A stretch of 64,000 bases of DNA from Anaerobacillus sp. CMMVII (GTDB taxonomy: Bacteria > Bacillota > Bacilli > Bacillales > Anaerobacillaceae), in contig NZ_JACEHK010000017.1 in NCBI RefSeq assembly GCF_025377685.1, positions 186,001-250,000 on the forward strand, read 5' to 3'. Below, one piece after another: positions 19,479 to 38,706 of this stretch (its first letter is position 1; each line of letters begins with the position of its first letter). A model generated the notes under the pieces. That model worked only from the letters and a program-made list of their open reading frames with translations. It did not search any database and was not told the origin of the DNA. Made by a program: the position numbers and the translations under genes.

Positions 19479-19494
19479 AGAAAGAGGTGCATTG

Positions 19495-20963
19495 ATGAAA
19501 TTTGTGTTTTATGAGAATTACATCGCTCCAGCTGTTTTGCGGCAATCCGACTTCGTACCTACGGCCATTAGTAGGCTTCCGGACTTTTGTATGCCACCAC
19601 TTAATTCTACGTATAACTATTCCGAAACACTCCAACAACTTCTAAGCGGTAGAAAACTCCTTTTTCAAGAGATTAACCTTTCAATCGAAATCATTCACGA
19701 GCATTATCTACATGGCTTTGTCAGCTACCATAAAGGAATCACTGAAAAAAATGGTTCATATTTTTGCCAGCGCTGTGGCAATCAGAAAAGACACTTATTT
19801 GCAAAGCATGCATGTGCAAGGTGCGAAGCAGAATGTGTGTATTGTCGCCACTGTTTGACGATGGGGAAGGTGTCGCAATGCTCACCATTACTTACTTGGA
19901 CAGGGACGCACGTCCACTATGAAAAACGTAATCGGGCTCTTGAATGGCAAGGAACCTTGTCGCAAGGTCAGCAACACGCATCTGAGAAAATTATTGCAGC
20001 GGTCGGTACGGCGAAAAAGTTATTAATTTGGGCGGTTTGCGGTGCTGGAAAAACTGAGATCCTTTTTGAAGGGATGAACAAAGCGATTGAAGAAGGACAA
20101 AATGTCGTGATCGCGACACCAAGAAGTGATGTTGTTCATGAACTTACGCCTCGGATAAAAAGTGTCTTTCCACAAATAGCTGTGATCTCGTTATTTGGTG
20201 GCAGTGAAGATCGTGGAAAACAAGGGCAGCTTGTGCTAGCAACGACCCACCAACTCCTCAGATACCACGACCACTTTGACTTCGTCGTCATAGATGAAGT
20301 AGATGCCTTCCCGTTCTCCTATGACCCGATGCTGAAATTTGCAGCCAAACAAGCGGCTAAGCAAACGGCCACAACGATCCTCTTAACCGCCACTCCTGAT
20401 AAAAAACTCCAAAAGTCAAAAGATCTCGAGATCGTTAAAATACCGACGCGCTACCATGGCTTTCCGCTTCCGGTTCCTAAGTCCAAATGGATTGGAAACT
20501 GGCGTAAGCTGTTAAAAAAAGAGCGGGTGTCAGACACCATCATGGATTGGTTAAAAAACGAATGGTTACTAAACAGCAAGCGTTTCTATTTGTTCCTTCA
20601 GTCACCGTCCTCGATCAAATCGTTCCAATCCTTCAAAAAACGTTTCCCCTACTCGATGGCGTTCACGCTGAAGATCCTAATCGCCGCGAAAAAGTTCAAA
20701 ACTTCCGCCAAAAAGAGCTTCAAATATTAGTGACAACGACGATTTTAGAACGAGGCGTTACGGTTGAAAACGTAGCTGTCGCTGTTTATGGTGCAGATGA
20801 CGACATTTTTACTGAAAGTGCTCTTGTGCAAATCTCTGGTCGTGTTGGTCGTAGTGCCAGGTTTCCAACGGGTGATATTCACTTTTTTCATTATGGTCAA
20901 ACAGAGGCGATGCTAGATGCAATTGACCATATTAACTTAATGAATAAGTTGGGAGGTTTTTAA
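19495..20963 (+). CDS. comFA: Competence helicase ComFA, frameshifted
   Basis: DNA-dependent ATPase that helps move single-stranded DNA inward during transformation. Visible: a four-cysteine zinc module (CQRCG...CARCEAECVYCRHC), Walker A CGAGKTE, DEAD-like VVIDEVDAF, LLTATPDK, and in the second frame TTTILERGVTVENV and ISGRVGRSAR (motif VI). The frame changes at an A6 run (20553-20558); seven A give one protein of about 490 residues. The ATG at 19495 follows AGAGGTG. The REP palindrome GGTGTCAGACACC (20526-20538) lies inside the coding sequence, read as RVSDT. comFC follows one base after the stop and comFB is absent. Confidence 0.9.
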
Positions 20964-27656: not shown

Positions 27657-27688
27657 GCGGACAAACCAAACTCAAGGAGGAATTATTT

Positions 27689-28513
27689 ATGATTATCAAC
27701 AATAACATTTCAGCATTAAACAACCACCGTCAGATGGGTATGAACCAGGCTGCTGGTCAAAAATCTATGGAGAAGTTATCTTCAGGTCTTCGTATTAACA
27801 AAGCTGGTGATGATGCAGCAGGTTTAGCAATCTCTGAGAAAATGAGAGGGCAAATTCGCGGCTTAGACCAAGCATCTCGTAACGCTCAAGATGGTATCTC
27901 TTTGATTCAAACAGCTGAAGGTGCGTTAAACGAAACTCATTCTATCCTTCAACGTATGCGTGAATTAGCAGTACAAGCATCAAATGATACAAACACTGAT
28001 GCAGATCGTGGAGAACTTCAAAAAGAAGTTAACCAGTTAATCTCGGAAATTGATCGTATTGCTAATAATACAGAGTTCAATACAAAGACTCTTATGAATG
28101 GTAGTTTCGATAGTACCGCATTAACTTTCCACATTGGAGCAAATATTGATCAAAATATTGCATTGACAATTGCTGATATGAGCTCTGCTGGTGTGCTATC
28201 TCAATTATCAGGTTTAGGAATCACTTCTCAAGGTGATGCTAATGACGCAATTTCAGCTATTAATGCTGCGATTGAAAGAGTTTCTGCTGAAAGATCTAAA
28301 CTAGGCGCTTACCAAAATCGCCTTGATCATACAATTTCGAATCTTGGTAATTCAGCTGAAAATCTTCAAGCTGCTGAATCTAGAATTAGAGATGTAGACA
28401 TGGCACGTGAAGTAATGAGTATGACGAAGAGTAATATTCTTTCTCAAGCATCACAAGCAATGCTTGCACAAGCGAACCAAGCACCACAAGCAGTACTTCA
28501 ACTATTAGGTTAA
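27689..28513 (+). CDS. hag: Flagellin (Hag)
   Basis: 274 residues (short flagellin: D0/D1 with a minimal variable region). The start at 27689 follows AAGGAGG and gives the standard N-terminus [15 protein letters not shown]; an upstream in-frame ATG (27584) would add about 35 atypical residues and lies before the CsrA target. The C-terminus [15 protein letters not shown] is canonical. The filament protein is controlled by sigma-D and by CsrA/FliW. A strong terminator follows, and a large glycosyltransferase gene lies next. Confidence 0.97.
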
Positions 28514-28628: not shown

Positions 28629-31600
28629 ATGGAAAAATTTCTAAGTTTATGTATGATAGTTAAAAATGAGGAAAGAACATTAGATCGTTGTTTAAGTTCA
28701 GTTAAGGATGTAGTTGATGAAATAATAATAGTAGATACAGGTTCTATTGATAGGACGTTAGAAATAGCGAATAGATATGTACAAAGAGTATATGAGTATG
28801 AATGGAATAATAGCTTCTCAGATGCAAGAAATTTTGCACAATCTAAGGCTTCTGGCAAATGGATTCTTGTTTTAGATGCTGATGAGTTTGTAGACACTGA
28901 TAATTTAAAATTAGCCATTGATGAGCTAAAGGAAAGTAAAAGTTCTGCTGAGGCCTTTCAAGTTAAAATTTACAATTTTACTGGAAAGTATGGCGAACGA
29001 ATTATACAGCATAAAAGCATTAGATTATATAGAAATAGTTCTTCTATTAAATATTATAGACTAATACATGAACAATTAAAAAAAGTAACTGGTGATTTAG
29101 AAGTTGGTTCTATTAACCTAACTCTTTATCACTCAGGTTATCTGAATAGCACAATGAAAGAAAAAAACAAATCAGAAAGAAATACACATTTACTAGATAA
29201 TGAAATCGTATTGTCTGGGAATTCAGCTTTTGATTATTTTAATTTAGGAAATGAATACTTGGTTACTAATGAAACTGAAAAAGCATTGGAGGCATTTGTT
29301 AATGGATACAACAAAAAAATAAGCTTTAACATTAGCTGGATACCGTTCTGTTTGGTCCAAATAGTTAATTGTTTGATTAGTTTGCAAAGATATGAAGAAG
29401 CCTTAAGGGTAATTGCTGATGCTGAAAATATCTTTCCCGCTTCACCTGATTTTAAGGTTTTTAAGGCAAATATCTATTTGAGTCAGCATCGTTATACGGA
29501 TGCGCTAGAAGTTTTGGTTTCTACTATAGAAACTCATGGAGATGATAATCATTGTATAGTAAGTATAGACTATAGAGAATATTATCCGCATTTATTGCTG
29601 GGGAAAGTTTACAAAAAACAAAACGAATTAAGTAATGCAGTATTTCATTTTAGTAAAGCATACTCTTTTAATAAAAGTAAAGAAGCGTTAAGTGAACTAC
29701 TAAATATTTTATATAAAAACGAATCCGAAAGTGACATAAAGCACTTTATAGATACTAATATTGATATCTCAACTACTGATGATTTAATTAATATGGTATT
29801 AATATTAATATCTATTCATGATACGGTTATTGTGAAAGAGTATATTGAAAAGGTTAATGAACCAATACTTGTTAAAGGACTTAATTTAAGAATAGCCTTA
29901 TACGAAAACAATATTCCGACGATTAAAGAATTAATGTTGGTAATTTCTAATAATGAGCTGATCGAGCTGATTAAAAGACAAATAATTGATTTCTATGATG
30001 TGATAGTCATCTATTTTATACTCGGAGATGGTATTATCACCATTTTGAGAGATTTATCTTATACACTATTAGGTGGAGATAAATCTTTTATAGAAAGATT
30101 ACTATCTGGAAGCAACTTAATAAATGAGACTGATAAAAAACATTATTTAGTTTTATTTGAAAGGTTATTAAAATATAAGTTTGACTCAATATTGAATAAG
30201 TTTTTAGAATGGAGGTACTCCTTAGGATCCGATATTAATATCGATATAGGAGATATTTTATATAAATATGGTTGCAAAGATTTGGCTATTAATTCATATA
30301 AACAAGTAATTAATACAAGCTTTTTATCTGAAAACTCTTTTGCTAATATCTGTAAGTACTATAAAGACCAACAAAATTTTACCCAAGCACTTAAGGTTGC
30401 TAGTGAAGCACTTAAATTAAATAAATATGACTTTAGGATAATAACAGACTTTATTGAAATTTTCATGAGCCATCAAAATTACCAAGGTGTTATTGATACA
30501 ATTGATTTTGGGTTAGAAAATTATAAAAATAGTAATTACTTGAAAAAGAAACTGGAGTTACTCTTTTCTATTCTTATAACTAATCAAGAGCAAAGTTTAG
30601 CTCTAAATTTAGTGAATGTTTTATCTAAACACTTTGGGGAAGATGCACATAGTATAACAATGAAGTCAATTGTTGAAATGTTAACTGGTAATATAGACGT
30701 TGCAGAGAATATATTAAATAACGGATTGGAAAGATTTCCTCGGAATTACGATATTTTATACAACCTACATTACTTACATGAAATGCAAGGTAGACACAAT
30801 GAGTCGGATGAAACACTAAAGTTATTAAACGAATGCTTGAATACGATGAGATATTTAAATCCAGACATTAGTGTTCAAGACTTTTTTAAACTATTAGATG
30901 AAAAGGGAATTAAGTATGTAGTTTTAAGATGGTATGATGAATTATTATATTCTACAGCGGAAATCAAAGATGTTGATATACTAGTTGATGATAAAGATGT
31001 CTATAAGTTAAGCAAATATTTTCTGCCTTATTACAAAGAAGGTGCAATACCATTCGATGTATATACACCTACACCAACACCTAATAATCATTTTGCTGGT
31101 TTACCTTACTATCCAAGAAATTTAGCAGATCAAATACTACGCCAAAGGGAAAAGTTAGACATAATATATGTGCCTAGTAATGAAGATTATATGTTTAGTT
31201 TAATTTACCATGCACTATACCATAAAGCAGAAAATTCTGGGCTAGATGGCAAAGTATCAAATAATAATAAGTATTATCGTAAAATTAAACAATTTTTGAC
31301 GATTATAAACTTAATAAAGAAATTACGTTAAAACAGTTACATCATTTCTTATCTGAAAATAATTGGTCCCCTTCTCTTGATCTACTTAGAAAGTATAGTA
31401 TTTTGCTTAATAGTGATTTTCTGAAAAGTGTTGCACAATCTACCCATTTTGAAAGGGAGTTCAAAAGTGAACTGTCAATCTATTTTATTAGAGAGTGGAT
31501 AACGAACAAGGGTTATAGTAATTTAATTATTGATAACTTGAAGAAGTACGGCTATGAAATACTATTAACTAAAGATTTAAATGATGAGGTACAAGATACA

Positions 31601-32527
31601 GCTACAAGAGAAATAAGGGGTGGTAACTGGAATGAAGGAGTGATTTATGAAACGGGCGGTAAGCCAGTTACTATGTTAGTCCTATTAGATCTTAACGTAA
31701 CTCCAGTGCCAGAAGAAAGAAAGAAACAATACCCTTTTGTTAAAAATGGTAACTTCTTTAAAAAAGAACTAATAAGAAGAGATATAAATGCACTTCTTAG
31801 TAAAGAAAACATGACCAATCCTGTACATTCCAGTGACGATGAACTAGAGGCAATGGAGTATATTAAACTTTTAATCCCAGAAGAAGTTGAGAAAATAATT
31901 AATAAGAAAGTTCGTTTAATAGAAAGATATCATTCAGACGAACACAGGGTTATTAAACAGTTTAATGGTTATAATTTAAGAGCTAAAACGGAGCTTATAG
32001 AATATGAAGGTGAATTTGCAGTTAAGAAGACATTTAGAGAAAGTCAAAAGAAATTTATGTTAAACGAAATTTATGCCTCAGAAGTCTTGAGCAAAAAATG
32101 TAATTTGATACCACCATTACTAGCTAAAGGTGAAAACTATATTATATTTCCGTATTATAAAAATGAGATTGATAATGAACAATCTAAAAGAAGTATACTT
32201 TCACAGAAGATAAAGGAAATCGCTAATTTTCTAAAGTTTTTGTATGATGAAGGTTTTGCTCATTTAGATTTCCACCCTGGCAACATAATTTATACTAAAG
32301 AAAATGGATTAAAAGTTATTGATTTTGAATACTTATTTAGTTATAGTAAGAAACCAGGTTGTCTTCTACAATCTTATGATGTCATTGGTCCACCTAAAGA
32401 ATTCAAGGGTGATAAACCAGTTTATACAAAATACGCTTCTGAATCAAGTTTGTATGATTACTATAATATTTTATGGGAACAAACAGTTGGTAAGAAGTTA
32501 ACTGAAATAGTTAAACATGAAGTATAA
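28629..32527 (+). CDS. Giant GT2-TPR-nucleotidyltransferase-kinase-fold protein, frameshifted
   Basis: Domains in order, numbered on the joined frame (~1,299 residues). Family-2 glycosyltransferase (1-230) with LCMIVKNEERTLDRCL and DADE (83-86). TPR-like helical repeats (about 210-725). A nucleotidyltransferase-like domain (742-890) with YVVLRWYDEL and DVDILVDD (781-788). A region with RGGNWNEGVIYETGGKP and NPVHSSDDELEAMEYIKL (His1067), which resembles the NDP-kinase active-site block NxxHGSD. A kinase/APH fold with Lys1133, HLDFHPGN (1212-1219) and Asp1232 of VIDFE. Frame is lost at a T5 run (31293-31297); six T join the two frames. It lies directly downstream of hag and looks AT-rich. I infer synthesis and transfer of an activated, possibly phosphorylated, glycan to flagellin. 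GGAGAAAA is its ribosome binding site. Confidence 0.7.
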
Positions 32528-32573: not shown

Positions 32574-32636
32574 TCTCAAGCAATGCTTGCACAAGCAAAC
32601 CAAGCTCCACAAGCTGTACTTCAATTACTTGGGTAA
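32574..32636 (+). pseudogene. Flagellin C-terminal remnant
   Basis: Twenty codons and a stop encode [20 protein letters not shown], the same residues as the end of hag ([23 protein letters not shown]) with several synonymous differences. No flagellin reading frame precedes it. It is the scar of a second hag gene whose 5' part has been lost or replaced by the glycosyltransferase insertion. Confidence 0.85.
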
Positions 32637-33283: not shown

Positions 33284-33552
33284 ATGAGAAAGTATGATTA
33301 CCCGAAACAGTTACAATTGCCATTGGTTAATGTAGTGAAGGAAGGGAAGACACAGCCATCGAAACTAGCATCCACTACAAAGACAGGAAAGTAAAGTCAC
33401 CAGAGGATGCTTACAATCTACTAAAACCAATGATGATTGATGCAGACCGTGAGCAGTTCATCGTCGTTTGCTTAGACACGAAAAACCAACCAACAGCAAT
33501 CAATGTTTGTCATGTTGGAAGTCTTAATTCTGCCATCCTTCGATTAGTCTAG
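33284..33552 (+). pseudogene. Truncated RadC-family (JAB/MPN) gene
   Basis: The start (after GGAGG) encodes RKYDYPKQLQLPLVNVVKEG. After one missing G in GGG (33344-33346) the other frame continues TAIETSIHYKDRKVKSPEDA ... DREQFIVVCLDTKNQPTAIN and CHVGSLNSAI. These are hallmark RadC sequences. It stops before the HPREVF and HNHPSGD metal-binding parts, so the catalytic JAMM site is missing. RadC-like genes are frequent on mobile DNA. Confidence 0.8.
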
Positions 33553-33943: not shown

Positions 33944-34320
33944 ATGGATGTGAAATCTTTATCTATTAAAGGGAACTATGATTTTAATGTTAATAGTACA
34001 AAAAAAGATCCTGACGTTAAAATGTTACTGAATTGATTAATCAACGGCTTACAGAGAAGCGGGAAGTTCTCCACGCTGAAAATGCCAAAGAAATATCTAG
34101 GATAGATCTAGAGAAAAATATTGAAAATGTTAATAAGTTTCTAGAAACAAGCTTTACTTCTTTAAAATTTCAAGTTCATGAAGACCTAGATCGTATTTTT
34201 GTGGAAATTGTTGATCAAATAACGCAGGAGGTAGTTAGGGAAATACCGCCAAAGGAATTCCTTGATATGATCTCTTCAATGCTAGAGCATGTAGGTTTAA
34301 TTGTAGATAAGCGAGTTTAA
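33944..34320 (+). CDS. flaG: Flagellar protein FlaG, frameshifted
   Basis: The ATG at 33944 follows AAGGAGGAGC. The first 25 codons are in one frame and the rest (VTELINQRLTEKREVL ... IPPKEFLDMISSM) in another. A fifth A in the run 34019-34022 joins them to about 125 residues. VNKFLETSFTSLKFQVHEDLDRIFVEIVD is split here for length but is the conserved FlaG core. It influences filament length and precedes fliD as yvyC does in B. subtilis. A sigma-D-like ACCGATAT lies 42 bases upstream with a poor -35. Confidence 0.85.
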
Positions 34321-37403: not shown

Positions 37404-38706
37404 TTGTTTCAGACTATTAGGAATATTTACAAGGTGGGAGATTTAAGAAATAAGATTATTTTACCTTACTCATGTTAGTGATTTTCCGTATTGGAGCGTT
37501 TATTCCAGTACCAGGTGCAAACCCTGATGTACTTCAGTTTCAAGATCAAATGAATGCCTTTGGATTTTTAAATACGTTCGGTGGTGGAGCGTTAGAGAAT
37601 TTTTCGATTTTTGCTATGGGAATTATGCCTTATATTACTGCTTCAATCATTGTTCAGCTTTTACAGATGGATGTTGTTCCGAAATTTACTGAGTGGGCTA
37701 AAGAAGGTGAGAGTGGTCGTCGTAAATTAGCGCAGTTTACGCGTTACGGTACAATTGTTCTAGGCTTTATTCAAGCTATTGGGATGTCAATTGGATTTAA
37801 TCGTTTAATGCCAGGGTTAATTCCTAACCCAAGCGTTGGTAAATATATTTTTATTGCATTAGTTTTAACAGCTGGTACAGCATTCTTAATGTGGTTAGGT
37901 GAGCAAATTACCGCCAAAGGCGTTGGTAATGGTATCTCAATCCTGATTTTTGCGGGTATCGCATCAGCGATTCCTAATGCAGTGAACCAAGTGTACGCGA
38001 CTCAATTAGAAGGAGTCGGCGATCAATTATTTCTTAATATTGTTAAAGTGGTCTTATTAGTTCTCATTATTTTAGCGATCGTTGTTGGTGTTATCTTTGT
38101 TCAACAAGCATTACGTAAAATTCCAGTTCAATACGCAAAAAAAATCGTCGCAGGACGTCCACAAGGTGGAGGTGCTACACATCTACCGTTAAAGGTTAAT
38201 GCGCGGCAGGGGTTATTCCAGTCATCTTTGCAATGTCGTTATTTATTTTCCCGCCAACGGTTGCTGGCTTTATCGGAGATGGTAACGTTGTGGCAGCTTG
38301 GATTACCCAAAACTTTACGTACCAAAAACCGCTTGGAGCGGCAATGTATGCAGCGTTGATCATTGGGTTTACGTACTTCTACACATTCATTCAAGTTAAC
38401 CCTGAAAAAATGGCAGAAAACCTGAAAAAGCAAGGTGGCTATATACCAGGAATTCGTCCAGGGAAAACAACGCAGGCGTACTTAACGAGAATTTTATATC
38501 GTTTAACGTTTGTCGGAGCGTTATTCTTAGCAGTCATTTCTTTAATCCCGGTAGTATTCACAGTCTTGATGAAGCTCCCACCAGCTGTACAAATTGGTGG
38601 AACTGGTCTACTAATTGTTGTCGGTGTAGCTCTTGACACCATGAAACAAATTGAAGGTCATTTAATCAAGCGTCACTATAAAGGATTTATCAAGAAGACT
38701 TCATAA
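37404..38706 (+). pseudogene. secY: Extra copy of SecY translocase gene, disrupted
   Basis: TTG start after GAGGTG gives LFQTIRNIYKVGDLRNKII, the ordinary SecY N-terminus. At a T4 run (37459-37462) one T is missing before the MLVIFRIGAFIPVPGAN block. The frame continues through LGEQITAKGVGNGISI and breaks again at GCGCGGCAGG (38201), two bases longer than GCGGCAGG, then continues to LIKRHYKGFIKKTS. SecY forms the Sec channel. It is normally in the spc ribosomal operon, so this copy beside fliT and an rplO-like tail looks like a duplicated fragment. Whether it is the only copy cannot be seen from this window. Confidence 0.8.

Follow-up and report, generated by a model that had tools for sequence, protein, structure and literature searches.

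A candidate one-piece flagellin-modifying protein with GT2, TPR, nucleotidyltransferase-like, NDP-kinase-like and kinase domains, encoded directly after hag in Anaerobacillus sp. CMMVII

We analyzed a 64,000-nucleotide stretch of the genome of Anaerobacillus sp. CMMVII (contig NZ_JACEHK010000017.1, positions 186,001 to 250,000; hereafter the window) and focused on the gene lying directly 3' of the flagellin gene hag. We lean, by a modest measure, toward the reading that this gene encodes, or recently encoded, a single flagellin-modifying polypeptide of about 1,300 residues, in which a glycosyltransferase family 2 (GT2) and tetratricopeptide repeat (TPR) part would add a sugar and a C-terminal module would add a phosphate-containing group. 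The window hag (27683 to 28513, on the forward strand, as are the gene, its domains and the hag remnant described below) shares 59-72% identity with near-full-length flagellins of the same-genus genomes G001 to G004 and 62% with that of G010, a genome of the same order. The gene starts at 28629. Its first open frame (28629 to 31331, 900 aa) begins with ATG, has AAGGAG 5' of the start and carries the GT2 domain, the TPR array and most of a nucleotidyltransferase (NTase)-like domain. The second frame, used here from 31298 to 32527 (409 aa) and open from 31289 to 32527, carries the NTase end, a nucleoside diphosphate kinase (NDK)-like domain and a kinase domain. The two share 31289 to 31330 within an overlap (31289 to 31331) that reaches the stop of the first frame, and the shift is plausibly located exactly within a T5 run at 31293 to 31297. 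Joined at this run they give 1,298 residues, close to the ~1,299 announced in a preliminary description of the locus, and the joined protein contains all the motifs listed there: DADE (residues 83-86), DVDILVDD (781-788), NPVHSSDD, HLDFHPGN and DFE.

The strongest evidence for one polypeptide comes from Alkaliphilus transvaalensis (L053), in which GT2, TPR, NTase, NDK-like and kinase parts follow each other in a single unbroken open reading frame (ORF) of 1,314 aa. A gap of 208 bases separates it from the preceding hag, and flgL, a 192-aa gene and fliW also lie upstream. By BLASTP, L053 was 39% identical to the window GT2 and first TPR (234 columns), 43% to the TPR end and NTase (280 columns) and 46% to the second frame (407 columns). 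A tree built from 49 sequences of the module (48 rows of at least 480 aa plus the window) placed window and L053 as sisters with support 100/100; odd amino-acid composition was warned of for many of its rows, these two included. Because an unbroken copy with the same order and the same post-hag place exists in the distant L053, the fusion is real and common to two distant Bacillota, the window genome (of the class of Planococcus) and L053 (Natronincolaceae). Across the window's break point, members of the Planococcus group also carry NTase-like, NDK-like and kinase domains in one ORF of ~704 aa, and six relatives from five genomes align uninterrupted across the junction. The possibility that the stop at 31331 separates two unrelated genes, which the preliminary description had raised against its own proposal, was rejected because relatives carry the module in one frame across this point.

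The second frame is not a chance ORF, since it stays free of stops over 407 columns at the identity given above and the six relatives span the junction. An independent second gene starting at TTG 31403 was rejected: no start with a ribosome site was seen near that position, and the first ATG comes only at 31673, which makes a second gene with its own start unlikely. A programmed frameshift was not favoured either, L053 and the Planococcus relatives doing without one. The break is either an error made in sequencing or a lesion of recent date. Sequence errors are favoured as its cause because the frames of a comFA-like helicase, flaG, a second secY and the ordinary ndk are also broken in the same assembly. 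Real decay also acts in this region, as a remnant of the 3' end of a second hag (32574 to 32636; 63 nt, 87% identity to 28451-28513) and a RadC-like fragment lie just downstream of the gene. Together with the frame break, these remains would fit a window copy that is a decaying pseudogene in a strain without the activity. We see this as possible, a minority prospect, and compatible with a flagellin-modifying role for the intact relative. It sits poorly with the absence of any other stop across the 1,298 codons, with the identity to L053 and with the retention of kinase and NDK-type residues; the other broken frames are, moreover, what sequence errors would be expected to give.

Both N-terminal assignments of the preliminary description were confirmed by Pfam. 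The GT2 domain (28644 to 29036, residues 6-136) matched PF00535 with an E-value of 5.9e-24 (85.3 bits, cut-off 23.3), its DADE being an acidic DxD-type motif, and the TPR solenoid (29229 to 30848, residues about 201-740) matched TPR families with an E-value of 7.3e-15. The TPR end (residues 628-740) is homologous to L053 residues 637-751. The NCBIfam model for the SunS S-glycosyltransferase was not reached (67.6 bits, cut-off 350), and neither window frame gave a match to the CDP-glycerol-transferase family PF04464 at E-values up to 1.

To place the remaining domains, we used an alignment (A3) of 56 rows, comprising 55 of the 70 loci at which relatives of the module were found plus the window second frame; the loci outside it are four near-identical ones of the Planococcus group, four from Actinomycetota and seven that are split, cut, partial or more distant (L099, L104-L109). 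A further alignment, A4, holds one piece of each window frame. The NTase-like domain (30849 to 31465; family alignments A1 and A2) spans the frame break and contains DVDILVDD and PFDVY. Its three Asp were kept in 55/55 A3 rows; the window row is a gap there, and the first window frame has both DVD and PFD of the carboxylate triad. No Pfam match was obtained for the window NTase or NDK parts at E-values up to 1, nor any NTase family among the 56 module members at 0.01. At higher E-values, NTP_transf_5 (PF14907) scored 13.9 bits on the window part against a cut-off of 31.2; it was listed for 8 of 10 members and was the top match in 6, never reaching the cut-off. Comparison of NTase profiles with hhalign gave 28.9%; two mismatched controls scored 0.1 and 0.4%. 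Pol-beta-type NTases carry an hG[GS] motif ahead of D-x-D. This motif is not kept in the family, where W occupies that place in 51/55 rows and G occurs only in L053. With Foldseek, a CCA-adding enzyme was matched at an E-value of 8.1e-4 (probability 0.44, rmsd 20, for a two-domain model). Beyond NDKs and three cilia-complex chains, the matches listed were low-probability ones to CCA-adding enzymes and, in one case, a poly(A) polymerase. The VIA structure search also used the NTase plus NDK model, and NDKs filled its list. As the nearest neighbours, both weak, are NTP_transf_5 in Pfam and CCA-type enzymes in Foldseek, the domain looks Pol-beta-like and unlike the GDP-mannose-pyrophosphorylase type. 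The nucleotidyltransferase of the preliminary description stands as an NTase-like domain, whereas the sugar activation assigned to it is unsupported.

The NDK-like domain (31466 to 31885) includes the His of NPVHSSDD at 31826-31828, which had earlier been likened to the NDK active-site His. Folds were predicted for the L053 module, the window pieces entering as alignment rows. When the first 365 residues of that module were modelled alone (pLDDT 93), residues 210-365 superposed on NDP kinases in the VIA search with a Z-score of 11.1 (rmsd 3.4, 125 aligned), and the best 50 VIA matches listed were NDP kinases or NDK-containing entries. The Pfam NDK family (PF00334) was found in 6/56 members (best 1.1e-6), and hhalign against a profile of 25 NDKs gave 89.5% for the domain alone, pairing the catalytic His, Asn and Arg of NDKs with family-conserved residues. 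The NDK-type catalytic His (N-x-x-H-x-S-D) is kept in 55/56 rows, including the window, and the Arg in 56/56. The family has the predicted fold, the catalytic His, the Asn and one site Arg in common with NDKs, and differs from them in its larger chain, a Lys to Arg replacement and a GGNW motif of its own. In NDKs, the active site has a Lys near the N-terminus, and Tyr, His and Thr are also site residues. The region of these last three aligned uncertainly in the family; the Thr column is variable, and the window has Lys there.

The kinase fold postulated earlier was also recovered in the structure prediction. In the window, the protein-kinase-like domain (31925 to 32524) contains AVKKTF (32018-32035), HLDFHPGN (32261-32284) and DFE (from 32321). 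Pfam gave Pkinase at 7.7e-7 (29.2 bits, under the cut-off of 31.7) and ABC1 at 2e-5 (24.3 bits, barely above the cut-off of 22.9, and under it in L053). For the whole L053 module, a model based on an alignment of 56 sequences had a pLDDT of 93.4 and a pTM of 0.90. Its C-terminal kinase domain was nearest Rio2 (Z-score 13.2, rmsd 3.5, 172 aligned) and PRPK/Bud32, with Z-scores for these between 13.2 and 12.7; ordinary protein kinases matched equally well. The kinase Lys, Glu, HxD, Asn and DFG-type Asp are present in the window and its relatives; in A3, Lys was kept in 50/52 rows, the catalytic Asp in 47/49 and the DFG-type Asp in 48/49.

Relatives of the module are spread over many phyla (70 loci, from 172 pattern matches in a scan of named genomes), and the module as such is covered by no Pfam or NCBIfam model tested. 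At an E-value of 1e-8, relatives of the window second frame were found in 6/299 same-class genomes, its own included, the other five being of one genus, the Planococcus group. In the order of the window, only 2/299 genomes matched, again counting its own, and the second frame was found in none of six other same-genus genomes. Searches of viral, plasmid and phage collections with the window second frame and the L053 module returned no relative. We then examined the flanks of the loci (ORFs of at least 90 aa, up to 6 kb per side, some contigs being shorter). Most Planococcus loci have rmlAB, gmd and wzx beside the unfused module, and 12 of the 13 Planococcus-group loci have rmlA or galU, the remaining one (L033) having manC; all loci other than L053 lie in polysaccharide and mixed surroundings. 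Among 93 of the 141 same-strand neighbour proteins within 2.5 kb (every Planococcus and L053 neighbour is among the 48 others, as are the kinase genes of L096 and L099), GT2 was the most common of 58 Pfam families, with 25. Because unfused relatives often adjoin glycan genes and rarely hag, the usual partner of the module looks like a glycan. At 14 loci the module is kinase-less, split, cut or NTase-only; a kinase gene lies near five of them (L089 on the opposite strand, L096, L097, L099, L108; E-values from 4.3e-47 to 1.4e-3), and nine show no nearby kinase gene, some being at contig ends. In G895 and G783, two genomes of the class Clostridia, a gene with kinase-like motifs adjoins an NTase-NDK and a GT2-NTase gene. 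In nine unfused members, the N-terminal 158-287 aa matched no Pfam family above cut-off, with stray weak matches in two. Planococcus-group members L040 to L052 have an extra N-terminal domain of 160 aa, without Pfam match in L040, the one tested. This is a conserved family with intact-looking active sites, present in many phyla and tied to glycans.

In the mechanism that we propose, flagellin would be modified in the cytoplasm ahead of export. The TPR array would hold flagellin while the GT2 domain attaches a sugar to it, and the C-terminal module, with its NTase-like domain, NDK-like domain with catalytic His, and kinase, would put a phosphate-containing group on that sugar. Most likely the kinase would phosphorylate the sugar, or else a small partner, and the NTase and NDK-like domains together, via nucleotides and phospho-histidine, would build or relay a phosphate-linked substituent. 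We observed the fusion, the conserved active-site residues, the post-hag position, the frequent association of the module with glycan genes and the domains themselves, those of kinase and NDK type as predicted folds; we infer flagellin as the substrate, the addition of phosphate, the step order, the donor, the hydroxyl phosphorylated, the cargo of the NTase and the role of the NDK-like His. A broader proposal, tentative and in our eyes rather doubtful, is that the module is an undescribed glycan-capping enzyme whose NDK-fold phospho-histidine shuttles phosphoryl between a glycan kinase and an NTase; bacteria of many phyla would apply it to surface polysaccharides, and fusion to GT2-TPR in a few Bacillota would let one protein build a whole flagellin phospho-glycan. 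It would be unusual for the NDP-kinase fold, complete with its catalytic His, to work within a glycan enzyme. For the one-piece flagellin form, the chemistry of the module could be tested by mass spectrometry with a single gene and a single acceptor protein.

Several observations weigh against the mechanism that we propose for the gene. L053 is the only unbroken five-part example found, and the window copy is itself frame-broken. Within the flanks, hag occurs at 1/70 loci, the same locus (L053) being the only one with a GT2-TPR part, and housekeeping genes are also among the 93 neighbours scanned. Sequence comparison identifies the NTase only weakly, given the sub-threshold NTP_transf_5 scores and the hhalign value. 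The NDK profile match drops to 64.5% with a whole-module profile, and the NDK site Lys is replaced by Arg in 53/56 rows, including the window, with Lys in 3. Finally, hag loci of this kind do not always require all the parts, because in two genomes described below (G703 and G1335) the corresponding gene has neither the NTase Asp residues nor a kinase, and one hag-linked relative has no NTase.

The preliminary description suggested that the chain could phosphorylate, activate and transfer a glycan in that order. In such a scheme, the kinase would make a sugar phosphate, the NDK-like domain would renew the nucleoside triphosphate, and the NTase would form an NDP-sugar for the GT2 domain of the same chain. 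All required activity types are indeed in one chain with conserved active sites, and in Planococcus the module adjoins sugar-nucleotide genes. However, the order was not borne out: the NTase resembles, weakly, NTP_transf_5 and CCA-type folds and not sugar-1-phosphate nucleotidyltransferases, the Planococcus-group loci already have rmlA/galU or, in the one case, manC for activation, and GT2-TPR exists without the module in G010. This scheme is possible, unlikely in our estimation, and less likely than addition of a phosphate-containing group to the GT2-added sugar. Pol-beta-type NTases can also modify proteins, and the kinase fold has Rio2, PRPK/Bud32 and ordinary protein kinases as its neighbours, which would suit a regulatory module that adds phosphate or a nucleotide to flagellin, or to the GT2-TPR part itself. 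Such a role seems improbable to us, as the unfused relatives are mostly away from flagellin genes and often beside glycan genes.

A literature search, with most subscription papers outside its reach, found no description of the fused architecture or of the module. To our knowledge, the kinase/methyltransferase WbdD is without GT2, NTase or NDK-like part. In the accessible part of its description WbdD acts on a glycan (PMC3482155), and the hag locus of G993 (below) likewise pairs a kinase with a methyltransferase. According to the available sections of PMC10714395, the Type A system of C. difficile (CD0240-CD0244) has a glycosyltransferase (GT) gene downstream of fliC and a phosphodiester addition on FliC, which resembles the window in having a GT gene after the flagellin gene and then, as proposed here, phosphate chemistry on the sugar. 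Type A, however, consists of five separate genes, with CD0242 modelled on GDP-mannose pyrophosphorylase and CD0244 on TagF, whereas the Pol-beta-like NTase, NDK-like domain and kinase of the window are all encoded in one gene. The same sections describe FgtA (PA1091) of P. aeruginosa as a GT and predicted phosphotransferase in one protein, so a flagellin-locus GT fused to a phospho-transfer domain is already known (PMC10714395); the fused domain of FgtA is CD0244-like, and the window protein has no CDP-glycerol-transferase Pfam domain. The novelty claimed earlier for a one-piece version is thus limited to this set of domains in one chain, which we did not find described. GT and TPR parts in or near a flagellin locus, as in the window, are also reported in the portions available for C. 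sporogenes, where GT2-TPR flagellin glycosyltransferases are predicted (PMC13317340), and for FlmG, whose TPR part binds flagellin (PMC7591256). FlmG has a GT-B domain, and those portions mention no NTase, NDK-like or kinase domain for either. In a paper on the Geobacillus flagellin island (PMC5109656), the words "kinase" and "TPR" are absent from the main text.

Searches around L053 and G703 that covered a class (4/391 genomes), an order (2/393) and a family (2/22), in overlapping sets, added three hag-adjacent loci of related make-up, in G703, G1335 and G993, and GT2 plus TPR occur at a flagellin gene in these, in the window, in L053 and in G010. The proteins of G703 and G1335 (850 and 858 aa) combine GT2-TPR with an NTase remnant devoid of the Asp residues, a further TPR gene running off the contig in G1335. 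In G993, a GT2-TPR gene after hag is followed by a TPR-kinase-methyltransferase gene (L162:10651-12771). A stretch between these two genes resembles the end of the NDK-like domain. In G010, a GT2-TPR gene without the module comes after hag. Within the genus, nothing lies between hag and flaG in G003, and another cassette occupies this gap in G001, which makes it a swappable modification slot; the best flagellin of G002 and of G004 lies in another setting.

Other features were recorded in the window and the rest of the genome. The comFA-like helicase at 19492-20963 is divided over two frames. The RadC-like fragment, in the hag-flaG gap at 33331-33552, is a JAB-domain match (6.7e-9) covering 49/121 profile positions. 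For flaG (about 33944-34320), the start with a strong ribosome site is in one frame and the conserved body in another. The second secY (37472-38706), downstream of the flagellar genes, is in two frames, and an intact secY is found on contig C1. The ordinary ndk of the genome (L164, contig C10) has a frame break close to its start. On contig C18, a 198-aa kinase-like protein near a galU-like gene (L007) distantly resembles the module kinase.

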